Of a stretch of DNA of 64,000 bases, positions 18,570 to 39,127 are shown in pieces. Location: contig NZ_JQBR01000005.1 in the NCBI RefSeq assembly GCF_001438655.1, positions 62,001 through 126,000 on the forward strand, in the 5' to 3' direction. The stretch's first letter is position 1. Each line of letters opens with the position of its first letter. The notes beneath the pieces are model-generated. The model was not told where the DNA came from, searched no databases, and saw only the letters and a list, made by a program, of their open reading frames with translations. Origin of the DNA: Pediococcus cellicola (GTDB taxonomy: Bacteria; Bacillota; Bacilli; Lactobacillales; Lactobacillaceae). Made by a program: the position numbers and the translations under genes.

Positions 18570-18810
18570 AATATTAAAGAACGCTGTGAACAGATGAGTA
18601 GGAACAAAGCCGATTTTAAAGAGAGCTAGGATAGTGAAAGCTAGTAATGAGGCAGTGCTGAAGATGGTCTGGGAGCGTTGCGGTGAACTCCAAAAGTGAA
18701 GCTGCAGGTGCGAAGCCTTTATGAATTAAGATAAACGTTTTTCGTTTAAATAAAGGTGGCACCGCGGTGAAACGCCCTTTACTTCAAATTTGAAGTGAGG
18801 GCGTTTTTTT
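18570..18810 (+). ncRNA. T-box leader, specifier reads as Met (AUG)
   Basis: The T-box sequence AAAGGTGGCACCGCGG is at 18752-18767, followed by a terminator (AACGCCCT arm to GGGCGTT, then seven T up to 18810). Stem I features precede it: an apical block (AGCTAGGATAGTGAAAGCTA) and the specifier region GAAG-ATG-GTC-TGGGAG. In known T-boxes the specifier codon is followed by RUC and a GGAG-like block, which points to ATG at 18664-18666, that is methionine. Reading one base earlier would give GAT (Asp), but that breaks the spacing. Uncharged tRNA should stabilise the antiterminator and switch on the ECF genes downstream. Confidence 0.9.
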
Positions 18811-18861: not shown

Positions 18862-19419
18862 ATGAACCAAAAACAAGGTATTTCAGTAAGAACCGTTGTG
18901 GCAATCGGAATTGGGACCGCAATTTTCTTTGTATTAATGCGTTATATTCCCATTCCAACTGGTGTGCCAAATACGAATATTAACTTAGCCTATGGATTCT
19001 TAGCACTAATGGGAGCTATTTTTGGCCCCATTGCGGGTGGCTTGATTGCTTTTTTGGGACACATGTTTACTGATTTAACCTGGGGTGAACCTTGGTGGAC
19101 ATGGATCATTGCTGATGGCATCTATGGTGTTCTGTTTGGATTAACCAAAAAATCCCTGAATATTGAAAGTGGTGCTTTGTCGAAACGAAAATTAATCCTT
19201 TTTAATGTTTACCAGATTATTATTACGATTTTGGTATGGGGTGTGATTGCGCCAACCGGAGATGTACTTATCTATTCAGAACCAGCTTCTAAAGTTTATC
19301 TACAAGGAATAACTTCAGTGATCTGCAATGCCCTTTCAGTTGGAATTTTGGGAACAATTTTATTAGTGGCTTATGCCAATACCCGTTCTAAGAAAGGTAG
19401 CTTAAAGGAAGAGTCTTAA
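18862..19419 (+). CDS. mtsT: ECF transporter S component, UPF0397/MtsT type
   Basis: 185 residues with about five to six membrane helices and the UPF0397 pattern (SVRTVVAIGIGTAIFFVL, then IPTGVPNTNI, then GEPWWTWIIADG). UPF0397 proteins are substrate-binding S components of energy-coupling factor transporters. The Met-type T-box in front and the dedicated A and T genes behind match the MtsTUV system proposed for methionine or methionine precursors. The substrate assignment is inferred from family and leader, not shown. Confidence 0.82.
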   Translation: MNQKQGISVRTVVAIGIGTAIFFVLMRYIPIPTGVPNTNINLAYGFLALMGAIFGPIAGGLIAFLGHMFTDLTWGEPWWTWIIADGIYGVLFGLTKKSLNIESGALSKRKLILFNVYQIIITILVWGVIAPTGDVLIYSEPASKVYLQGITSVICNALSVGILGTILLVAYANTRSKKGSLKEES

Positions 19420-19423
19420 TTTT

Positions 19424-21133
19424 ATGAAGAAACCAATCATTAGTTTTCAAGATGTTAGTTTTCAGTACCACAGTCAATCTAAGCCCACGCTGCATCATCT
19501 AAATTTTGACATTTATCCTGGTGAAAAGGTTTTGATTGCGGGCCCCTCAGGATCAGGAAAAACCACAATCAGTCGATTAATCAACGGCTTAATTCCGACT
19601 GCCTATCCCGGACAATTGTCTGGTAAAATTTTGATCAATGGCGAACCAGCTGAGAAACAGACCATATTTGACCTTTCATTAAAAGTTGGCACTGTCTTGC
19701 AGGATCCGGATACACAATTTGTAGGATTGACAGTGGCCGAAGACATTGCATTTGCACTGGAAAATGATGATGAGAATCAGCCTGTACTGCAAAAAAAAGC
19801 ACATGAATGGGCGCAGCGATTAAACATTCCGGCCATTTTAAATAATCATCCACAAGAAATCTCGGGTGGTCAAAAGCAACGAGTTGCCATGGCAGGTGTG
19901 TTAGTGGATGAGGGAAAAATTCTCTTATTCGATGAGCCCTTGGCTAGTTTAGATCCAGTGGCTGGCCGTGCTTCCATTGAGTTAATTGATGGGATGCAAA
20001 AACAGGATCATACGACCACAATTATTATTGAACATCGCATTGAAGATGTCTTGTACAAGCCAGTGGATCGGCTTATTTTGGTTGATCAAGGTAAAATTGT
20101 GGCTAACGATACGCCTGAAGCCCTTTTGAAAAGCGGCATTTTGATGAGTTTAGGACTGCGTGAGCCTTTGTATCTGTCTGCTTTGAAGTACGCGGGTGTG
20201 AAACTAGATTCAGTCGAAAATGTAGACAGTATTCAAAAAATTCAGCTTTCCTCTGCCGTTGCTCAGAGTGTGCAAAGCTGGGTTAAACCACAAACGGTAA
20301 CTGCCGCAAAAGCGAAAAAGACCCCGATTCTTAAAATAAAGAACCTGTCTTTTAGCTATGATTCTAGGCCAATTTTACGTCAATTGAACCTCAGTATTCA
20401 GGCCGGTGAAATGGTTAGTTTGGTTGGCAAAAATGGGGTAGGTAAAACAACACTGAGTAATATTATTACCGGCTTTTTGCATCAGAATTCCGGTAGTTTG
20501 GATTTAAATGGTGAAAGTATTGATGATGCCTCCATAAAAGAACGGGCGGACCACATTGGGTATGTCCTTCAGGATCCCAATATGATGATTTCGAAAAATA
20601 CCGTTTCAGAAGAAGTTGCTTTAGGACTAACACTCCGTGGTGTCAATTCGGATGAGATTGACGCTAAAGTAGCCAAAACATTGAAGGTTTGTGGGCTATA
20701 TGCCTTTCGTCACTGGCCAATTTCGGCTTTAAGTTATGGACAGAAAAAAAGAGTTACCATTGCGGCAATTTTGGTCTTAGATCCGGAACTTTTGATTTTA
20801 GACGAACCAACAGCAGGTCAGGATTGGCGTCATTATACAGAGATGATGTCTTTTATTCGTGATTTAAACCAGCAATACGGAATTACTGTTATTTTTATTA
20901 CGCATGATATGCATTTAATGATGGAATATACAGATCGTGTGGTTGTTTTAAATGATGGTGCCATTGCCTATGATGATCAACCGATGAAATTGTTTGCCAA
21001 TTTAGATTTGCTAAAACAGGCCTCATTAGTTGAAACCAGTTTATTTACGCTCGCACAACGAGTTAATGTAGCTCCGGAGAGGTTAATTGCAAGCTTTATT
21101 GCTCAAGAGAAGGTGGGGCGTGCACATGAATAA
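19424..21133 (+). CDS. mtsU: ECF transporter ATPase, two fused ABC domains
   Basis: 569 residues made of two ABC ATPase modules. Module 1: Walker A GPSGSGKTT near 41, signature ISGGQKQRVAMAG, Walker B ILLFDEPLASLD. Module 2: Walker A GKNGVGKTT near 330, signature LSYGQKKRVTIAA, Walker B LLILDEPTAGQD. This is the fused EcfA-A' form. It overlaps the next gene by eight bases. It energises uptake by the S component through EcfT. Confidence 0.9.
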   Translation: MKKPIISFQDVSFQYHSQSKPTLHHLNFDIYPGEKVLIAGPSGSGKTTISRLINGLIPTAYPGQLSGKILINGEPAEKQTIFDLSLKVGTVLQDPDTQFVGLTVAEDIAFALENDDENQPVLQKKAHEWAQRLNIPAILNNHPQEISGGQKQRVAMAGVLVDEGKILLFDEPLASLDPVAGRASIELIDGMQKQDHTTTIIIEHRIEDVLYKPVDRLILVDQGKIVANDTPEALLKSGILMSLGLREPLYLSALKYAGVKLDSVENVDSIQKIQLSSAVAQSVQSWVKPQTVTAAKAKKTPILKIKNLSFSYDSRPILRQLNLSIQAGEMVSLVGKNGVGKTTLSNIITGFLHQNSGSLDLNGESIDDASIKERADHIGYVLQDPNMMISKNTVSEEVALGLTLRGVNSDEIDAKVAKTLKVCGLYAFRHWPISALSYGQKKRVTIAAILVLDPELLILDEPTAGQDWRHYTEMMSFIRDLNQQYGITVIFITHDMHLMMEYTDRVVVLNDGAIAYDDQPMKLFANLDLLKQASLVETSLFTLAQRVNVAPERLIASFIAQEKVGRAHE

Positions 21134-21959
21134 CAATGTCTTAATTGGGTATAAAAAACGAGATAACTTTGTAGATCGTTTGACAGGAACTACAAAATTA
21201 ATTGGTTTGATTGCACTTTCGGTCATTGGCATGGTCAGTTTTGACACGCGCTTTTTATTGGTTTTGACCGTGGGTTCACTAGTGCTGTTTCGGCTTTCTG
21301 GAATCAGATTTCGAGAAGTTTCGTTTGTTTTAAGTTTTATTACGGCGTTTTCAGTACTGAATCTGGCTGCAGTCTATATATTTGGACCGCAGTATGGTGT
21401 GCATTTATATGGGTCGGCACATGTCATTTGGCAGGGAATTGGTCCCTATAATTTAACGTGGGAGCAGCTCTTTTATGAATTTAATTTGTTTTTGAAATAT
21501 ATTTTTACAATTCCGTTGGCGTTGATATTTTTGATGACGACGAATCCAAGTGAGTTTTCATCAAGCTTGAACCGTATTGGAATTTCGTATCGCATTAGTT
21601 ATGCGGTGTCATTAGCGTTGCGCTATATTCCGGATGTGCAAAAGGATTATCGGCAGATTAGCAAGGCACAGCAGGCACGTGGCAATGAAATTTCGAAAAA
21701 AGGAAAATTGACGCATCGGGTGAAGGCGGCAGCACAGATTTTGTTGCCGTTGATTTTCACGAGTTTGGATCGGATAGAAACGATAAGTCAGGCGATGGAG
21801 TTGCGTCGGTTTGGTAAATTGAAGAAGCGAAGTTGGTACGCGCAGCGGCCGATGAAGAAAAATGACTTTGTGGCCTTGTTGGGAGTTGCGGTAGTGGTGT
21901 TGGTAGGTATTTATCTATTTAGGGTGAATGGCGGAAGGTTTTATGATCCGTTTAACTAA
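21126..21959 (+). CDS. mtsV: ECF transporter transmembrane component (EcfT)
   Basis: 277 residues from the ATG at 21126, preceded by AGGTGGGG within the end of mtsU. EcfT hallmarks: about five helices and the cytoplasmic coupling segments with conserved short motifs (QQARG near 183, then MELRRFG near 240). The final 240 bases of the gene are G-rich on the coding strand (about 34% G by hand count over 21661-21900), and a palindromic repeat starts six bases after the stop, as at the end of the baeRF gene. Confidence 0.88.
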   Translation: MNNNVLIGYKKRDNFVDRLTGTTKLIGLIALSVIGMVSFDTRFLLVLTVGSLVLFRLSGIRFREVSFVLSFITAFSVLNLAAVYIFGPQYGVHLYGSAHVIWQGIGPYNLTWEQLFYEFNLFLKYIFTIPLALIFLMTTNPSEFSSSLNRIGISYRISYAVSLALRYIPDVQKDYRQISKAQQARGNEISKKGKLTHRVKAAAQILLPLIFTSLDRIETISQAMELRRFGKLKKRSWYAQRPMKKNDFVALLGVAVVVLVGIYLFRVNGGRFYDPFN

Positions 21960-30908: not shown

Positions 30909-31970
30909 ATGTCAAAAACAAAAAACAAACCATCAGTGAGTAAAGAAGTCGTTATGAATACTTTGAACGGGCTATCAATTGGTATCATCGTAGCACTCGT
31001 TCCCAGTGCCTTATTGAATCAGCTACTTACAGCTCTTTTACCGGTTTTTCCGGCCGGTCAAACGATTATGATGATGACCAATGCGGCAATGACATTGTTA
31101 CCAGCAGTTAGTGCTGTATGTGTAGGTATGCTGGCAAAATTTTCACCTATTCAAACCACGTCAATTGCATTGGCTGCTGTTATGGGTGCGGGTAGTTTTA
31201 AAGTAGGAGCTACCGGATTTAACGTGAGTGGCACGGGAGATGTGATTAACATTGCCCTTACAATTATGATTGGTTATGTGCTAATTTTATTATTGGGAAA
31301 ACGTTTGAAAGCTTATACAATCTTGTTGATTCCCACACTTGTGCTGGTGATTGCTGGTGGAATTGGGACTTTGACGCTAGGACCTGTAAGCGGAATTACT
31401 AAGCTTCTTGGTATTGGGGTCATGCAACTTACTAGTTTACAGCCAGTAGTCATGGGTATTTTATTAGGAATTGTCTTTGCACTTTTGATTATTTCTCCAA
31501 TTTCGTCAGTTGGGATAGCCGCCGCCATCAGTATTCATGGAGTGGCAGCCGGATCAGCAAATCTAGGAATTGTGGCAGCAGGTTTTGCTTTAGCAATTTA
31601 TGGCTGGAAAGTGAACTCTCTTGGCACTTCCTTAGCACATTTTCTTGGTTCACCAAAAATGCAGATGGCAAACATTATGTCACGGCCAAAATTAGTGCTG
31701 CCAATTATCATTAATGCGGGGATCCTAGGAGGGCTTGGTGCTGTATTGAATATTCAAGGCACCACAATGAGTGCAGGTTTTGGATTTTCAGGTTTGATTG
31801 GCCCGATTGCAGCACTAAACGGATTGGGAGGCGTCACAGTTAGCTCACTCATTCTCGTTACACTCATGTTCCTGATTTTGCCAATCAGTCTTGGTTTAGT
31901 AAGTGATTATGTGTTCGCGACTAGATTGCATTTTTACGACAATAGCGATTTCGAATTGAATTATGCCTAA
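30909..31970 (+). CDS. PTS_EIIC_2-family membrane protein
   Basis: 353 residues with about ten helices. The sequence (SKEVVMNTLNGLSIGIIVAL near the start, AAAISIHGVAAGSANLGIVA in the middle) fits the EIIC-like family Pfam PTS_EIIC_2, sometimes annotated as putative toxin regulator (PfoR-like). It has no EIIA or EIIB partner nearby, so sugar transport is doubtful. It starts 20 bases after araT (AGAGGAG site) and shares its leader control; a transport role linked to aromatic amino acids or keto acids is a speculation from context. Confidence 0.75.
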   Translation: MSKTKNKPSVSKEVVMNTLNGLSIGIIVALVPSALLNQLLTALLPVFPAGQTIMMMTNAAMTLLPAVSAVCVGMLAKFSPIQTTSIALAAVMGAGSFKVGATGFNVSGTGDVINIALTIMIGYVLILLLGKRLKAYTILLIPTLVLVIAGGIGTLTLGPVSGITKLLGIGVMQLTSLQPVVMGILLGIVFALLIISPISSVGIAAAISIHGVAAGSANLGIVAAGFALAIYGWKVNSLGTSLAHFLGSPKMQMANIMSRPKLVLPIIINAGILGGLGAVLNIQGTTMSAGFGFSGLIGPIAALNGLGGVTVSSLILVTLMFLILPISLGLVSDYVFATRLHFYDNSDFELNYA

Positions 31971-32002
31971 ATCATGAGATTAAAATAAAATTAAAAAATG
32001 TG

Positions 32003-32030
32003 TTGACTTCTAATTTTGCTTGGTTATAAT
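32003..32030 (+). promoter_or_regulatory. Promoter of the branched-chain leader/OppA unit
   Basis: TTGACT (32003-32008), 16-base spacer, TATAAT (32025-32030). Expected start near 32037. Confidence 0.75.
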
Positions 32031-32062
32031 AGGGTTTATTAAATCAAAGGAGATGAAGTCAC

Positions 32063-32158
32063 ATGCCACGTACACTTAACGCTAAAAACTTAATTAGTTT
32101 AGTCATTATTAGCTTAATTATTAAAGTGCACGGTGCTGTGACTTTAACCTTTAGCTAA
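32063..32158 (+). CDS. Branched-chain-rich leader peptide upstream of an OppA-like gene
   Basis: A 31-codon ORF with AAAGGAGATG at 32046-32055. Residues 10-20 read LISLVIISLII, nine of eleven codons for Leu, Ile or Val, followed by KVHGAV. This resembles the enterobacterial ilv leader (VISLVVISVVV) in composition and order. The codons for VHG contain GCACGGTG (32128-32135), exactly complementary to CACCGTGC (32195-32202) in the rising arm of the terminator. Ribosome-mediated attenuation by Leu/Ile/Val supply is the inference. Confidence 0.85.
   Translation: MPRTLNAKNLISLVIISLIIKVHGAVTLTFS
32123..32145 (+). promoter_or_regulatory. Protector-type hairpin in the branched-chain leader
   Basis: AAAGT and CAC on one side pair with GTG and ACTTT on the other, with one bulged G. 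The stem contains the GCACGGTG element, so it would hide it from the terminator arm. Its exact role depends on where the ribosome stalls. Confidence 0.5.
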
Positions 32159-32174
32159 TAATTTTTAGTGGCCT

Positions 32175-32246
32175 AAAGAGGATGAAAAGTTACCCACCGT
32201 GCTTTCGTAAGAAAGATATGGTGGGTATTTTTTATCCTCTTTTTTT
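32175..32246 (+). terminator. Attenuator terminator before the OppA-like gene
   Basis: A very long hairpin: AAAGAGGAT (32175-32183) with ATCCTCTTT (32234-32242), then GAAAAGT opposite the T stretch, then TACCCACC (32191-32198) with GGTGGGTA (32220-32227) and an inner CTTTC/GAAAG stem. Ends in a T run to 32246. There are 80 bases between its end and the OppA start codon. Confidence 0.85.
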
Positions 32247-32326
32247 ATAAATCTGCGCAGATGAAAAGGCTAACTTCAAGTCATAGGTTTCTTAATTTAC
32301 AAACTAAGTTTAAGGGGATTTGAAAT

Positions 32327-33961
32327 ATGCAAAATAAGTGGAAAAAGCTAGGCACGGCGACACTTCTTTTATCAGTATTATTGGCGGGCTGCGGAAGCGC
32401 AAAAAGTTCTGAAGCAAAAAATGAAAGTTTTAGTGTGATGGAGCAAACAGATTTGCTAACAATTGACAGTTCGCAAATTACCGATTTGACATCATTTAAC
32501 ATGGTTAACAATGTTCAAGAAGGCCTTTATCGTGTGGCAAAAGGAAATAAACCCGTTGCGGGATTAGCAGAAAAAGTTGTGAAACCCACCAATAATGGTA
32601 AAACGTATACGTTTAAGTTACGTAAAGGGTTGAAGTGGAGCAATGGAGATCCGTTAACAGCACAAGATTTTGTTTACTCGTGGCGACGTACTGTCAATCC
32701 AAAGACCAAAGCGGGATATGCTTACATTATGCAAAACGTTAAGAATGCCTCGGCAATTTCTGCAGGAAAGATGCAACCAAGCAAATTAGGTGTTAAGGCA
32801 CTGGATAAACGGACCCTTCAAGTTAATTTGACACATGCCACACCTTACTTTAAGTATTTGATGGCATTCGGAACTTTCTTCCCACAAAATCAAAAGGCTG
32901 TGGAAAAATATGGGTCTAAGTATGGCACGGCCAGCAAATACATGGTCTACAGTGGACCATTTAAGATGGTTGGCTGGAATGGCACCAATATGAGCTGGAA
33001 GCTCGAAAAAAATAATCGGTACTGGGACAAGAAAAATGTTGCTGTAAGCAAGATCCCAGTTAAGGTTGTAAAAGACCCCAATACGGCTTTGAATTTATAT
33101 CAATCAGGAAAGCTTGACGATGCTTTGCTATCAGGAGAACAGGCCAATCAAGAAAAAAGTAATAAGGCTTTTGTAAAGTATGAACAAGGTCAAACTGGCT
33201 ACCTTGCTATGAGTTTTACAAAAGGTAAGGCCACTGCAAATGTGAACGTACGTAAGGCGCTCTCTTTAGTGATTAACCGTAAGACTTTGACGAGCAAGGT
33301 TCTTGCTGACGGCTCCACTCCTGCAAAAGGATTCTTACCATCTGCATTTGTGACAAATCCAAAGACGGGGACAGACTTTACAAAAGATGCGAGTTACCCA
33401 GAAGCTGTGGCACATGATGTTTCTAAAGCGAAAACATACTGGCAAAAAGGTTTGAAGCAAACGGGTAAGACAAAGATGAACTTCGAATTGGTAGTTAGTG
33501 ATGATGATTCACAAAAGAAGTTAGGTGAAGCCGTTCAAAGCGCTGTAGAACAAAGCCTGCCAGGAGCGACGGTGACCGTTCGATCCTTGCCTACTAAAGG
33601 CGCGCAAAGTGCACAGTTGGGCGGCAAGTTTGATATGACAATTGTGCGTTGGATTGGTGATTACACAGATCCATTAACATTTGCCCAATTGGAAACAACT
33701 GGCAACACGTATAACTATGGAAGATTCTCCAATAAGACCTATGATAAATTGGTTGCGGCCACTAACGGGAAAGATGCCAATAACGAACAAAAACGTTATG
33801 AAGATTTTGTTAAGGCTGAAAAATTGTTGATGCAACAAGAAGCGGTAGTTCCTTTGTATCAAGCAGTTCAAACACAACTAGTTAATCCTAAAGTTAAAGG
33901 GATTGTCTATCATCCAACTGGTGCTCCTTATGATTATAAGTGGACCCATGTTGAAAAATAA
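32327..33961 (+). CDS. oppA: Oligopeptide ABC transporter substrate-binding lipoprotein
   Basis: 544 residues of the SBP_bac_5 family. Lipobox LLAGC with the lipidated Cys22, then a Ser-rich linker. Family patterns: EGLYRVAKGNKPVAGLAEKV, LRKGLKWSNGDPLTAQDFVYSW and RKALSLVINRKTL. It binds peptides outside the membrane and hands them to an Opp permease, but no oppBCDF genes are adjacent, so it must use a permease encoded elsewhere. AAGGGGAT precedes the ATG. A branched-chain leader and terminator lie in front. A second paralogue is at 37514. Confidence 0.9.
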   Translation: MQNKWKKLGTATLLLSVLLAGCGSAKSSEAKNESFSVMEQTDLLTIDSSQITDLTSFNMVNNVQEGLYRVAKGNKPVAGLAEKVVKPTNNGKTYTFKLRKGLKWSNGDPLTAQDFVYSWRRTVNPKTKAGYAYIMQNVKNASAISAGKMQPSKLGVKALDKRTLQVNLTHATPYFKYLMAFGTFFPQNQKAVEKYGSKYGTASKYMVYSGPFKMVGWNGTNMSWKLEKNNRYWDKKNVAVSKIPVKVVKDPNTALNLYQSGKLDDALLSGEQANQEKSNKAFVKYEQGQTGYLAMSFTKGKATANVNVRKALSLVINRKTLTSKVLADGSTPAKGFLPSAFVTNPKTGTDFTKDASYPEAVAHDVSKAKTYWQKGLKQTGKTKMNFELVVSDDDSQKKLGEAVQSAVEQSLPGATVTVRSLPTKGAQSAQLGGKFDMTIVRWIGDYTDPLTFAQLETTGNTYNYGRFSNKTYDKLVAATNGKDANNEQKRYEDFVKAEKLLMQQEAVVPLYQAVQTQLVNPKVKGIVYHPTGAPYDYKWTHVEK

Positions 33962-37513: not shown

Positions 37514-39127
37514 ATGAAAAAGAAAATTTTTGTATTAGGTGCGGTTTTATTTTCGGGAATGTTATTTTCGGGTTGTTCATCAAGCAAAGCAGACAGTGAT
37601 ATAGAGACAATCAACGTCACTTTGGCCGGTAATCCAGCCACCGCCGATCCTAATAAAGGCGGCGATACCAATAGCGGGAGTTTATTTGCACAAACGGATG
37701 AAGGTTTATACAAATTAGATAAAAATCAAAAAATTGTCGCCGGTGTGGCTACTAAAGTGGTGAAGCCGACTAACGATGGTAAAACCTATACGTTCACGAT
37801 TAAAAAGACTGCTAAATGGTCTAATGGTAAAAAAATTACGGCTCAAGATTTTGTTACTTCGTTTCAACGCCAAGTTGATCCTGACACAAAATCGCAGGTG
37901 GCGAATTTGCTGACTTACGTGAAAAATTACCAGGCTGTCCAAGATGGTAAGGTGAAACCTTCAGCTTTAGGAGTGAAGGCATTAAGTAAACAAACATTGC
38001 AAATTCAATTGTCTAAGCCAGAACCTTATTTAAAAACGGTTTTAGCTACATCACTTTATCCAGTTTATAGTGCTTATGTTCAAAAGTATGGTTCTAGTTA
38101 TGGCACTTCATCTACGAAGATCGTTTCTAGCGGTGCCTATAAATTAGTTGATTGGAACGCAACTAAAGATACTTGGACATATGTTAAGAATCCTTATTAT
38201 TGGAATGCCAAACAAGTTAAATTAAGTAAAGTGAACGTCCAAGTGGTGAAAGATGATACAACCGCAGTTAACTTGTTTAAAGGGAATAAGGTTCAAGAAA
38301 CGGCAATCTCAGGTCAAACCGTTAGTCAATTTGCTGATTCAAAAAACTTAAGTACACAAATGATTTCACGAATGGCCTTTCTGGAGTTTAATTACAAGCA
38401 TTCGGCTACCAGCAATGAAAATTTATCCAAGGCTATTAGTTTAATTTTGAATCGAAAAACAATGACTTCCAAAGTTTTAGCGGATGGATCAATTCCAGCG
38501 CTAAACATGGTACCTAAGGGCGATTCAACGGATGAAAAGAATGGTAAAGATTTTGCAGGTGAAGTGGGTAATTTACTTTCTTACAATGTGACAGAAGCAC
38601 AAAAGAATTGGAAGCTCGCTCAAAAACAGTTGGGCAAAAAGAAGATAACTTTAGCAATGCTGGTTGATAATACCTCAACTGACAAACAAGTGGGTCAATA
38701 TATTCAAGGACAAGCTGAGAAGTACTTGAAAGGCCTCACTATTGAGATTAAACCAATGCCACATGCCCAGCACATTGGTGTGGCATCCAACGGTAATTAT
38801 GATATCAATCTAGATGGTTGGACGGGTGATAATCAAGATCCAGAAGAGTTCTTACAACTTGGTAACGGCCAAGATCCAGTGAACTTCACAAAGTGGGCTG
38901 ATAAACATTACACCAAATTAATGAATGAAATTGATGACACTAATAATCACACCACTAGTGAACGTTGGGCACTCATGCAAGAAGCCGACAAATATCTGAT
39001 GGCCAAACAAGGAATTGTGCCGTTGTATCAATCAACGGCCACACACTTAGTTAGCAAGGATGTTAAGGGCCTCACATATTCGAATCAGTCTGGAAAAGCG
39101 TTGTATCAATATGCATCTGTAAAATAA
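37514..39127 (+). CDS. Oligopeptide ABC transporter substrate-binding lipoprotein (paralogue)
   Basis: 537 residues, SBP_bac_5 family. Lipobox MLFSGC with Cys21 and a Ser-rich linker. The same family patterns as the paralogue at 32327 occur (TIKKTAKWSNGKKITAQDFV, NRKTMTSKVLADGSIPA), and the two share long stretches of similar sequence. AGAGGAG is seven bases before the ATG. It is cotranscribed with an M20 peptidase 14 bases downstream, which suggests uptake and processing of a particular peptide or N-acylated amino acid. No permease genes nearby. Confidence 0.9.
   Translation: MKKKIFVLGAVLFSGMLFSGCSSSKADSDIETINVTLAGNPATADPNKGGDTNSGSLFAQTDEGLYKLDKNQKIVAGVATKVVKPTNDGKTYTFTIKKTAKWSNGKKITAQDFVTSFQRQVDPDTKSQVANLLTYVKNYQAVQDGKVKPSALGVKALSKQTLQIQLSKPEPYLKTVLATSLYPVYSAYVQKYGSSYGTSSTKIVSSGAYKLVDWNATKDTWTYVKNPYYWNAKQVKLSKVNVQVVKDDTTAVNLFKGNKVQETAISGQTVSQFADSKNLSTQMISRMAFLEFNYKHSATSNENLSKAISLILNRKTMTSKVLADGSIPALNMVPKGDSTDEKNGKDFAGEVGNLLSYNVTEAQKNWKLAQKQLGKKKITLAMLVDNTSTDKQVGQYIQGQAEKYLKGLTIEIKPMPHAQHIGVASNGNYDINLDGWTGDNQDPEEFLQLGNGQDPVNFTKWADKHYTKLMNEIDDTNNHTTSERWALMQEADKYLMAKQGIVPLYQSTATHLVSKDVKGLTYSNQSGKALYQYASVK

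Follow-up and report, generated by a model that had tools for sequence, protein, structure and literature searches.

A putative leader-peptide attenuator rich in branched-chain codons upstream of an oppA-like gene in Pediococcus cellicola

Why a gene for a peptide-binding protein should be preceded by a short open reading frame crowded with Leu, Ile and Val codons, and by a long transcription terminator, is the question raised by a locus on the forward strand of the window, the 64,000-nucleotide stretch of the Pediococcus cellicola genome analyzed here. The answer that we favor, with a probability of about 0.86, is that this leader acts as a ribosome-mediated transcription attenuator of the trp/ilv type upstream of oppA. 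Its richness in Leu/Ile/Val codons would, very probably, let Pediococcus respond to a shortage of these amino acids by inducing a peptide-binding protein for uptake.

Architecture of the leader locus

The locus begins with a promoter (TTGACT-16-TATAAT, 32003-32030, a match to 11 of the 12 consensus positions), which is followed by a Shine-Dalgarno (SD) sequence, AGGAG, and a leader ORF of 31 codons, MPRTLNAKNLISLVIISLIIKVHGAVTLTFS (32063-32158), extending from the ATG at 32063 to the TAA stop codon at 32156-32158. Codons 10-20 (32090-32122) encode LISLVIISLII, with Leu, Ile or Val at nine of eleven positions, and represent the candidate regulatory run. Downstream lie an intrinsic terminator with T runs (3:4, 32178-32246; stem approximately 32178-32240, hairpin -38.9 kcal/mol, T runs at 32228-32233 and 32240-32246) and the proposed regulated gene (32327-33961), which encodes a lipoprotein-like, SBP_bac_5 oligopeptide-binding protein of 544 amino acids with PrgZ among its best matches in solved structures. 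The promoter, the ORF with its run and the terminator with its T run had all been named in a preliminary description of this DNA and are read directly in the sequence; the ‘binding site’ that it left undefined is taken here to be the SD. The elements that attenuation requires are present: a short, SD-preceded ORF with regulatory codons, a terminator between this ORF and oppA, an antiterminator that excludes the terminator by sharing its region 3, and a protector helix that excludes the antiterminator.

Considered alone, the promoter is not significant (one found by the scan versus 2.1 in shuffled sequences), and a simple terminator scan listed none at the locus; the TATAAT box and most of TTGACT are retained in all eight leaders known from the genus. 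The predicted fold of the 225-base leader is -74.6, whereas shuffled sequences average -42.1 (z -7.2, with 0 of 200 shuffles as low), and at least nine Leu/Ile/Val codons in eleven are found in 2 of the 65 ORFs in the window that have an ATG start, 12-60 codons and an SD-like tetramer. The second of these, at 2955, has by eye the look of a signal peptide.

The genome of the window contains a second leader, MTQFAQTILSILVIISLLIKVHSSVTSIS (C21), upstream of a second oppA, and leaders are found in 5 of 12 Pediococcus genomes, giving a total of eight that fall into two types, a and b; the sequence LVIIS is retained in every one. A DNA search of 100 relatives gave matches in eight genomes, five being the leader-bearing Pediococcus and the remaining three (G012, G046 and G082) having matches of 25-36 bases. 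Each of the five leader-bearing genomes has 9-12 oppA matches; the oppA of one congeneric genome (G011) is 91% identical to that of the window, and a locus search with the OppA protein gave two loci, one of them useful. The genus-wide oppA survey comprised 67 hits, from which three partial rows of G010 were dropped to leave 64 listed, with 60 upstream regions taken (the four left out being two in the window and two of G002). In six of these 60 regions an SD-preceded ORF starts with ATG and includes a stretch in which 8 or more of 11 codons are Leu/Ile/Val; every one of the six belongs to type a or b. A further region (L068) has a comparable ORF with a GTG start, and a T-box at gathering score is present in none of the 60. 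The window also contains a second oppA-like gene (37514-39127), and none of the eight best Leu/Ile/Val ORFs (at least 6 of 11) lies within 900 bases upstream of it.

Three mutually exclusive helices and the proposed switch

Comparative analysis shows that three predicted helices, 1:2, 2:3 and 3:4, are mutually exclusive and are kept across paralogues, species and genera. Region 1 (32048-32066) consists of the SD and the start codon and forms the 5' strand of helix 1:2; region 2 (32128-32152) can pair either with region 1, as protector, or with region 3, as antiterminator; and region 3 (32187-32202) is both the rising arm of the terminator and the 3' strand of the antiterminator. RNAalifold recovered the terminator and helix 1:2, with its SD and start codon, from the eight Pediococcus leaders, while the antiterminator 2:3 was written by hand and then scored on the same alignment. 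It comprises 15 pairs (32128-32135 with 32195-32202, and 32138-32144 with 32187-32193), and thus extends beyond the 8-base complementarity originally noticed, which is itself perfect (GCACGGTG, 32128-32135, against CACCGTGC, 32195-32202). A local hairpin at 32123-32145 had been suggested as the mask of these bases; the conserved masking partner is instead the SD/AUG region at 32048-32066.

Within the genus, 96.7% of the cells of helix 2:3 are paired, as compared with 27-44% when the partners are slid by 1-3 columns; the corresponding values are 96.3% versus 31-50% for the 17 pairs of helix 1:2 and 96.0% versus 46-60% for the terminator. Two-sided changes occur at two pairs of 2:3, three of 1:2 and nine of 3:4. 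When the percentage paired was compared with that of shuffled controls, the support was strong for 3:4 (0 of 500 shuffles as high) and modest for 1:2 (4 of 500) and 2:3 (17 of 500). A candidate third helix, between GCTAATAAT (32154-32162, over and after the stop codon) and its complement ATTATTAGC (32105-32113), is 94.4% paired across the eight leaders and was rejected because its conservation is not accompanied by covariation, every one of 500 shuffles scoring as high. The attenuation logic of ilv/leu type that the preliminary description proposed is therefore supported by the codon run and by exclusive helices that are kept in relatives, and the comparison with relatives that it called for, far from refuting it, found both LVIIS and the 2:3 pairing conserved.

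In the proposed mechanism, the ribosome would stall when too little tRNA charged with Leu, Val or Ile is available, its A site lying somewhere from codon 10 to approximately codon 18. Region 2 would then be free to pair with region 3, so that the terminator would come too late and oppA would be transcribed. With amino acids plentiful, a ribosome at the stop codon would cover most of region 2 and 3:4 would terminate; without translation, helix 1:2 would form and 3:4 would terminate as well. Because the output is a peptide-binding lipoprotein, a branched-chain auxotroph starved in this way would be expected to raise its peptide uptake.

The RNA was folded for successive ribosome positions with an assumed footprint; the part folded was the unoccupied stretch downstream of the ribosome as far as 32206, and helices across the ribosome were disallowed. 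The probability of 2:3 is then 0.98 for A-site positions from codon 8 to codon 18, 0.77 at codon 19, 0.46 at codon 20, at most 0.13 from codon 22 and 0 at the stop codon; the L-V-I-I codons 13-16 fall inside this permissive range. In the absence of a ribosome, RNA that stops short of arm 4 or inside it, at 32206 or 32215, forms mainly helix 1:2 (0.77 and 0.90, respectively), and region 3 is consequently left to the terminator. When a helix across the ribosome is allowed, the probability of 1:2 is 0.68-0.78 if the A site is at one of codons 12-16, and that of 2:3 is still approximately 0.5 when the ribosome has come to the last codons; since 1:2 thus competes around the stalled ribosome, the mechanism has to assume either that sterics prevent this or that a second ribosome behind the first occupies the SD. 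In full-length RNA at equilibrium, 3:4 wins (0.997) in all eight ribosome positions tried, which implies that the switch would have to be kinetic, with 2:3 holding kinetically. A kinetic hold of the antiterminator is a feature of other attenuators.

A leader family in the Lactobacillaceae

Beyond Pediococcus the same architecture is found in other letters. In total, 51 distinct leaders were read in five genera of the Lactobacillaceae, most with the core L-V-I-I, and their targets are ilvB-ilvC, ilvE, PF13303 membrane proteins, an M20 peptidase, a BASS-type carrier and oppA, these names deriving from family searches on one to three examples per class and, for the rest, from N-terminal likeness. 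An oppA search of 151 family genomes (E up to 1e-150) provided 14 loci outside Pediococcus that were read upstream; a leader is present in one (L136, genus g30, MSCINNKAIYLSVIQIISLVIISPHDVLSNVSAF) and T-boxes in two (L124 and L137), eight of the 14 having been run against Rfam. As a DNA query, the L136 leader matched 26 places in 14 of 14 g30 genomes, and the 26 leaders read there precede oppA (8), ilvE (11), PF13303 (3) and M20 peptidase (4) genes. The ilvB-ilvC class comprises 10 leaders in g30, g22 and g29 (for example MSSYNDQLAVRTLKNVISLIILVIIIMRECDLMPGLV). The earlier expectation of leaders that switch peptide uptake and not biosynthesis accordingly holds for Pediococcus only, the family in other genera standing before ilvB-ilvC. 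Many of the g30 and g22 leaders (L140-L161) are followed, as judged by eye, by a second, tandem terminator-like hairpin with a similar rising arm.

A covariance model (R2) of 21 of the 26 g30 leaders, which includes no Pediococcus sequence, has a helix 1:2 of 15 pairs with 97.5% of cells paired and 37 two-sided cells, a number that none of 500 shuffles reached, and recovers the leader of the window at E 0.0018. It matched 25 of 397 family genomes, in 24 of which (genera g1, g5, g22, g29 and g30) a leader was read; the match in G182 (L189) is attributed to chance. Among 395 genomes of the order, nothing outside the family held up, with three of the four hits being known family leaders and the fourth (G482, L213) a chance match. 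A second model, R1, matched 12 of the 397 family genomes, five of them the leader-bearing Pediococcus and seven weakly; inspection of six weak hits (L021-L025 and L027) shows no leader, and the seventh, L026, has a Leu/Ile/Val leader. Both large model searches used stricter filters, with which weak matches are lost, so that the distribution given here is a lower bound. In the plasmid collection there was no match to the leader of the window, and an ilvE leader queried together with its gene gave 10 records with matches that begin inside the gene.

The pairing tends to be specific to each leader, as illustrated by exchange of partners between target classes. The mean 1:2 duplex of the 51 leaders is -23.0 kcal/mol with their own partner and -14.4 with region 2 of another class, and the mean 2:3 duplex is -27.6 versus -21.2. 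Leaders in the best 5% of swaps number 40 of 51 for 1:2 and 30 of 51 for 2:3 (11 and 21 of 51 lie outside), and those below all swaps number 29 and 9 of 51, respectively. For the leader of the window, 0 of 47 foreign partners match its own 2:3 and 5 of 47 its own 1:2. The 2:3 helix of L210 is not better than with swapped partners (22 of 50 match it). Two Leu/Ile/Val leaders, L026 and L204, stand upstream of BASS-family carriers and have weak helices 1:2 and 2:3: eight of 49 swaps match 1:2 in each, 34 and 26 of 49 match 2:3, and neither helix is better than with swapped partners. The best NCBIfam model for the L026 carrier is the ketopantoate/pantoate transporter PanS, below cut-off.

An 11-base block over the codons Val-Ile-Ile, AGTCATTATTA (32101-32111), is exact in 42 of the 51 leaders, a count biased upward because the leaders were found by similarity; in the window it occurs once against 0.05 expected, and its GTC is, of the Val codons, the rarest in the window's long ORFs (15%). 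Kept to its wobble positions, beyond the need of codon choice, the block may act beyond its codons, and both this conservation and the rarity of GTC would suit a leader that senses translation speed in general, through ribosome inhibitors or nascent-peptide arrest at LVIIS, and not uncharged tRNA. We consider such a sensor improbable, since the nine leaders that lack the exact block remain rich in Leu/Ile/Val (6 to 11 of 11), the targets are ilvB-ilvC, ilvE, peptidase and oppA genes as opposed to resistance genes, and the count itself is subject to the bias just mentioned. The prospect that the ORF encodes a secreted, hydrophobic signal peptide bound by the OppA-like protein in the style of enterococcal pheromones, with an incidental terminator, is slighter still. 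The run is hydrophobic, PrgZ is among the structure matches of OppA, and we take the run to resemble pheromones; however, ilvB-ilvC, ilvE and peptidase genes are preceded by the same core, the end of the ORF is built into two alternative helices, and the N-terminal halves are not conserved.

The history of the oppA genes bears on a third reading. Among 54 OppA proteins placed in a tree, the 15 with a leader form three groups (3 changes). The Pediococcus type a proteins are sister to L124, the nearest oppA found outside the genus, which has a T-box whose specifier reads in the alignment as AUC (Ile); the type b proteins are sister to L137, a long branch, whose T-box (85.5 bits, below the gathering score) has a specifier read as CAC (His), so that the type b clade is not in every case linked to branched-chain amino acids. 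The g30 oppA genes form a separate lineage (the L136 protein is 45% identical to that of the window), and the leader thus stands on at least two separate oppA lineages. That sister oppA genes carry either a T-box or a leader peptide suggests exchange of the two, and it could also be taken to mean that the present leader derives from a T-box by degeneration or is an RNA of another kind that senses tRNA or a ligand. We consider this very improbable: no T-box (RF00230) is found at the leader locus at gathering score or among Rfam matches up to E 10, the only matches at 31900-32400 being sub-gathering ones of unrelated types (E up to 10), and the conserved ORF and SD form part of the helices. T-boxes are otherwise observed at L136 (739-979, minus strand), near the leader-bearing oppA and in the opposite direction, with a specifier read as AUC, and within the window at 18577-18782 (95 bits), upstream of genes (18862-21959) that look by eye, from their ORF translations, like those of an ECF transporter. 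The specifier of the latter reads as AUG (Met), which suggests a methionine transporter downstream.

Directly before the leader lies a gene for a PF13303 (PTS_EIIC_2) membrane protein (30909-31970) that ends 32 bases upstream of the leader promoter. Its proximity would allow the hairpin to be merely the terminator of this gene, and the ORF chance, an explanation that is ruled out by the conservation of promoter, ORF, helices and terminator in the paralogue and six other leaders of the genus, and that has a promoter intervening between gene and hairpin. PF13303 genes elsewhere are found behind a leader (L154, L205, L206 and L210) or second after ilvE (L208 and L212), and the window protein is 28% identical to that of L212 over 238 residues; judged from these positions, PF13303 is a candidate carrier of branched-chain amino or oxo acids.

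Physiological context and comparison with known systems

Ribosome-mediated attenuation of a peptide-uptake gene agrees with what is found of branched-chain metabolism in the genus. No ilvC was detected in any of 12 Pediococcus genomes (one being 76% complete; control 14 of 14), and no CodY above cut-off in any of 19 genomes; the same search did detect CodY in the B. subtilis and L. lactis controls, and G114 has a single sub-threshold match. Peptide uptake is therefore a plausible branched-chain supply for these bacteria, and as they must import what they cannot make, a starvation-induced peptide-binding protein would be sensible.

More broadly, and at odds only a little better than even, the dispersed L-V-I-I attenuators may constitute a branched-chain regulon of CodY-less Lactobacillaceae that comprises ilvB-ilvC, ilvE, oppA, M20 peptidase and PF13303 genes, the last as carriers of branched-chain amino or oxo acids; Pediococcus would have lost the biosynthetic branch with the switch surviving on peptide uptake, and AGTCATTATTA may act beyond its codons. 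In Lactococcus and Bacillus, proteolytic components are adjusted to branched-chain amino acids via CodY, which to our knowledge is missing in lactobacilli. For lactobacilli a possible unidentified regulatory protein or mechanism has been considered and a putative regulator, YebC, studied (PMC5561223), and for L. helveticus a protein, BCARR, has been proposed (PMC3795697). A leader-peptide regulon would be a different, RNA-level candidate answer to branched-chain sensing in at least five genera, and because it names its target genes it is testable with simple reporters. It would place a biosynthetic attenuator family on uptake genes in an auxotroph, with T-box and leader peptide on sister genes, and gives the PF13303 genes a functional hint.

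The enterobacterial ilvL and leuL leaders combine a run of Leu/Ile/Val codons with alternative hairpins. The Pediococcus leader resembles them, by description, in both respects and differs in that its helix 1:2 includes the leader's own SD and start codon. With the T-box leaders of sister oppA genes (L124 and L137) it shares an RNA leader and terminator, whereas those are of a type that senses tRNA directly and have no leader ORF. The statement in the preliminary description that Firmicutes normally use T-boxes for this purpose was too strong, as Listeria and Staphylococcus are documented to have ilv attenuators that depend on the ribosome (PMC5864092 and PMC5794164, which also cite ilv attenuation predictions in Lactococcus and Streptococcus). 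In Listeria monocytogenes, Rli60, the ilv-leu leader, is a ribosome-mediated attenuator with a 13-residue peptide that acts on biosynthesis together with CodY; its likeness to the present leader, by anatomy, consists of branched-chain codons in a short peptide, 2:3 and 3:4 helices and a Gram-positive host (PMC5864092). The Pediococcus leader, in contrast to Rli60, encodes 31 residues, precedes the gene of a peptide-binding protein, has a paralogue in the same genome and occurs where no CodY was found. The Staphylococcus aureus ilvD leader likewise has a Leu/Ile-containing peptide and a terminator in place of a T-box, and it serves one biosynthetic operon and concerns mainly Leu (PMC5794164); the present leader has a Leu, Val and Ile core, and its relatives stand on uptake, transamination and peptidase genes. 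His leader peptides replace T-boxes in Firmicutes according to a survey (PMC2965389), and His attenuators are reported from several Gram-positive groups in a later study (PMC9413887). Among the titles listed from the openly licensed literature, none concerns this family, attenuation by a leader peptide in Pediococcus or the control of opp genes by such a peptide. The kind of attenuator is therefore a known one, and what is new, as far as checked, are its targets, its distribution over multiple genes and a protector helix that incorporates the SD of the leader itself.
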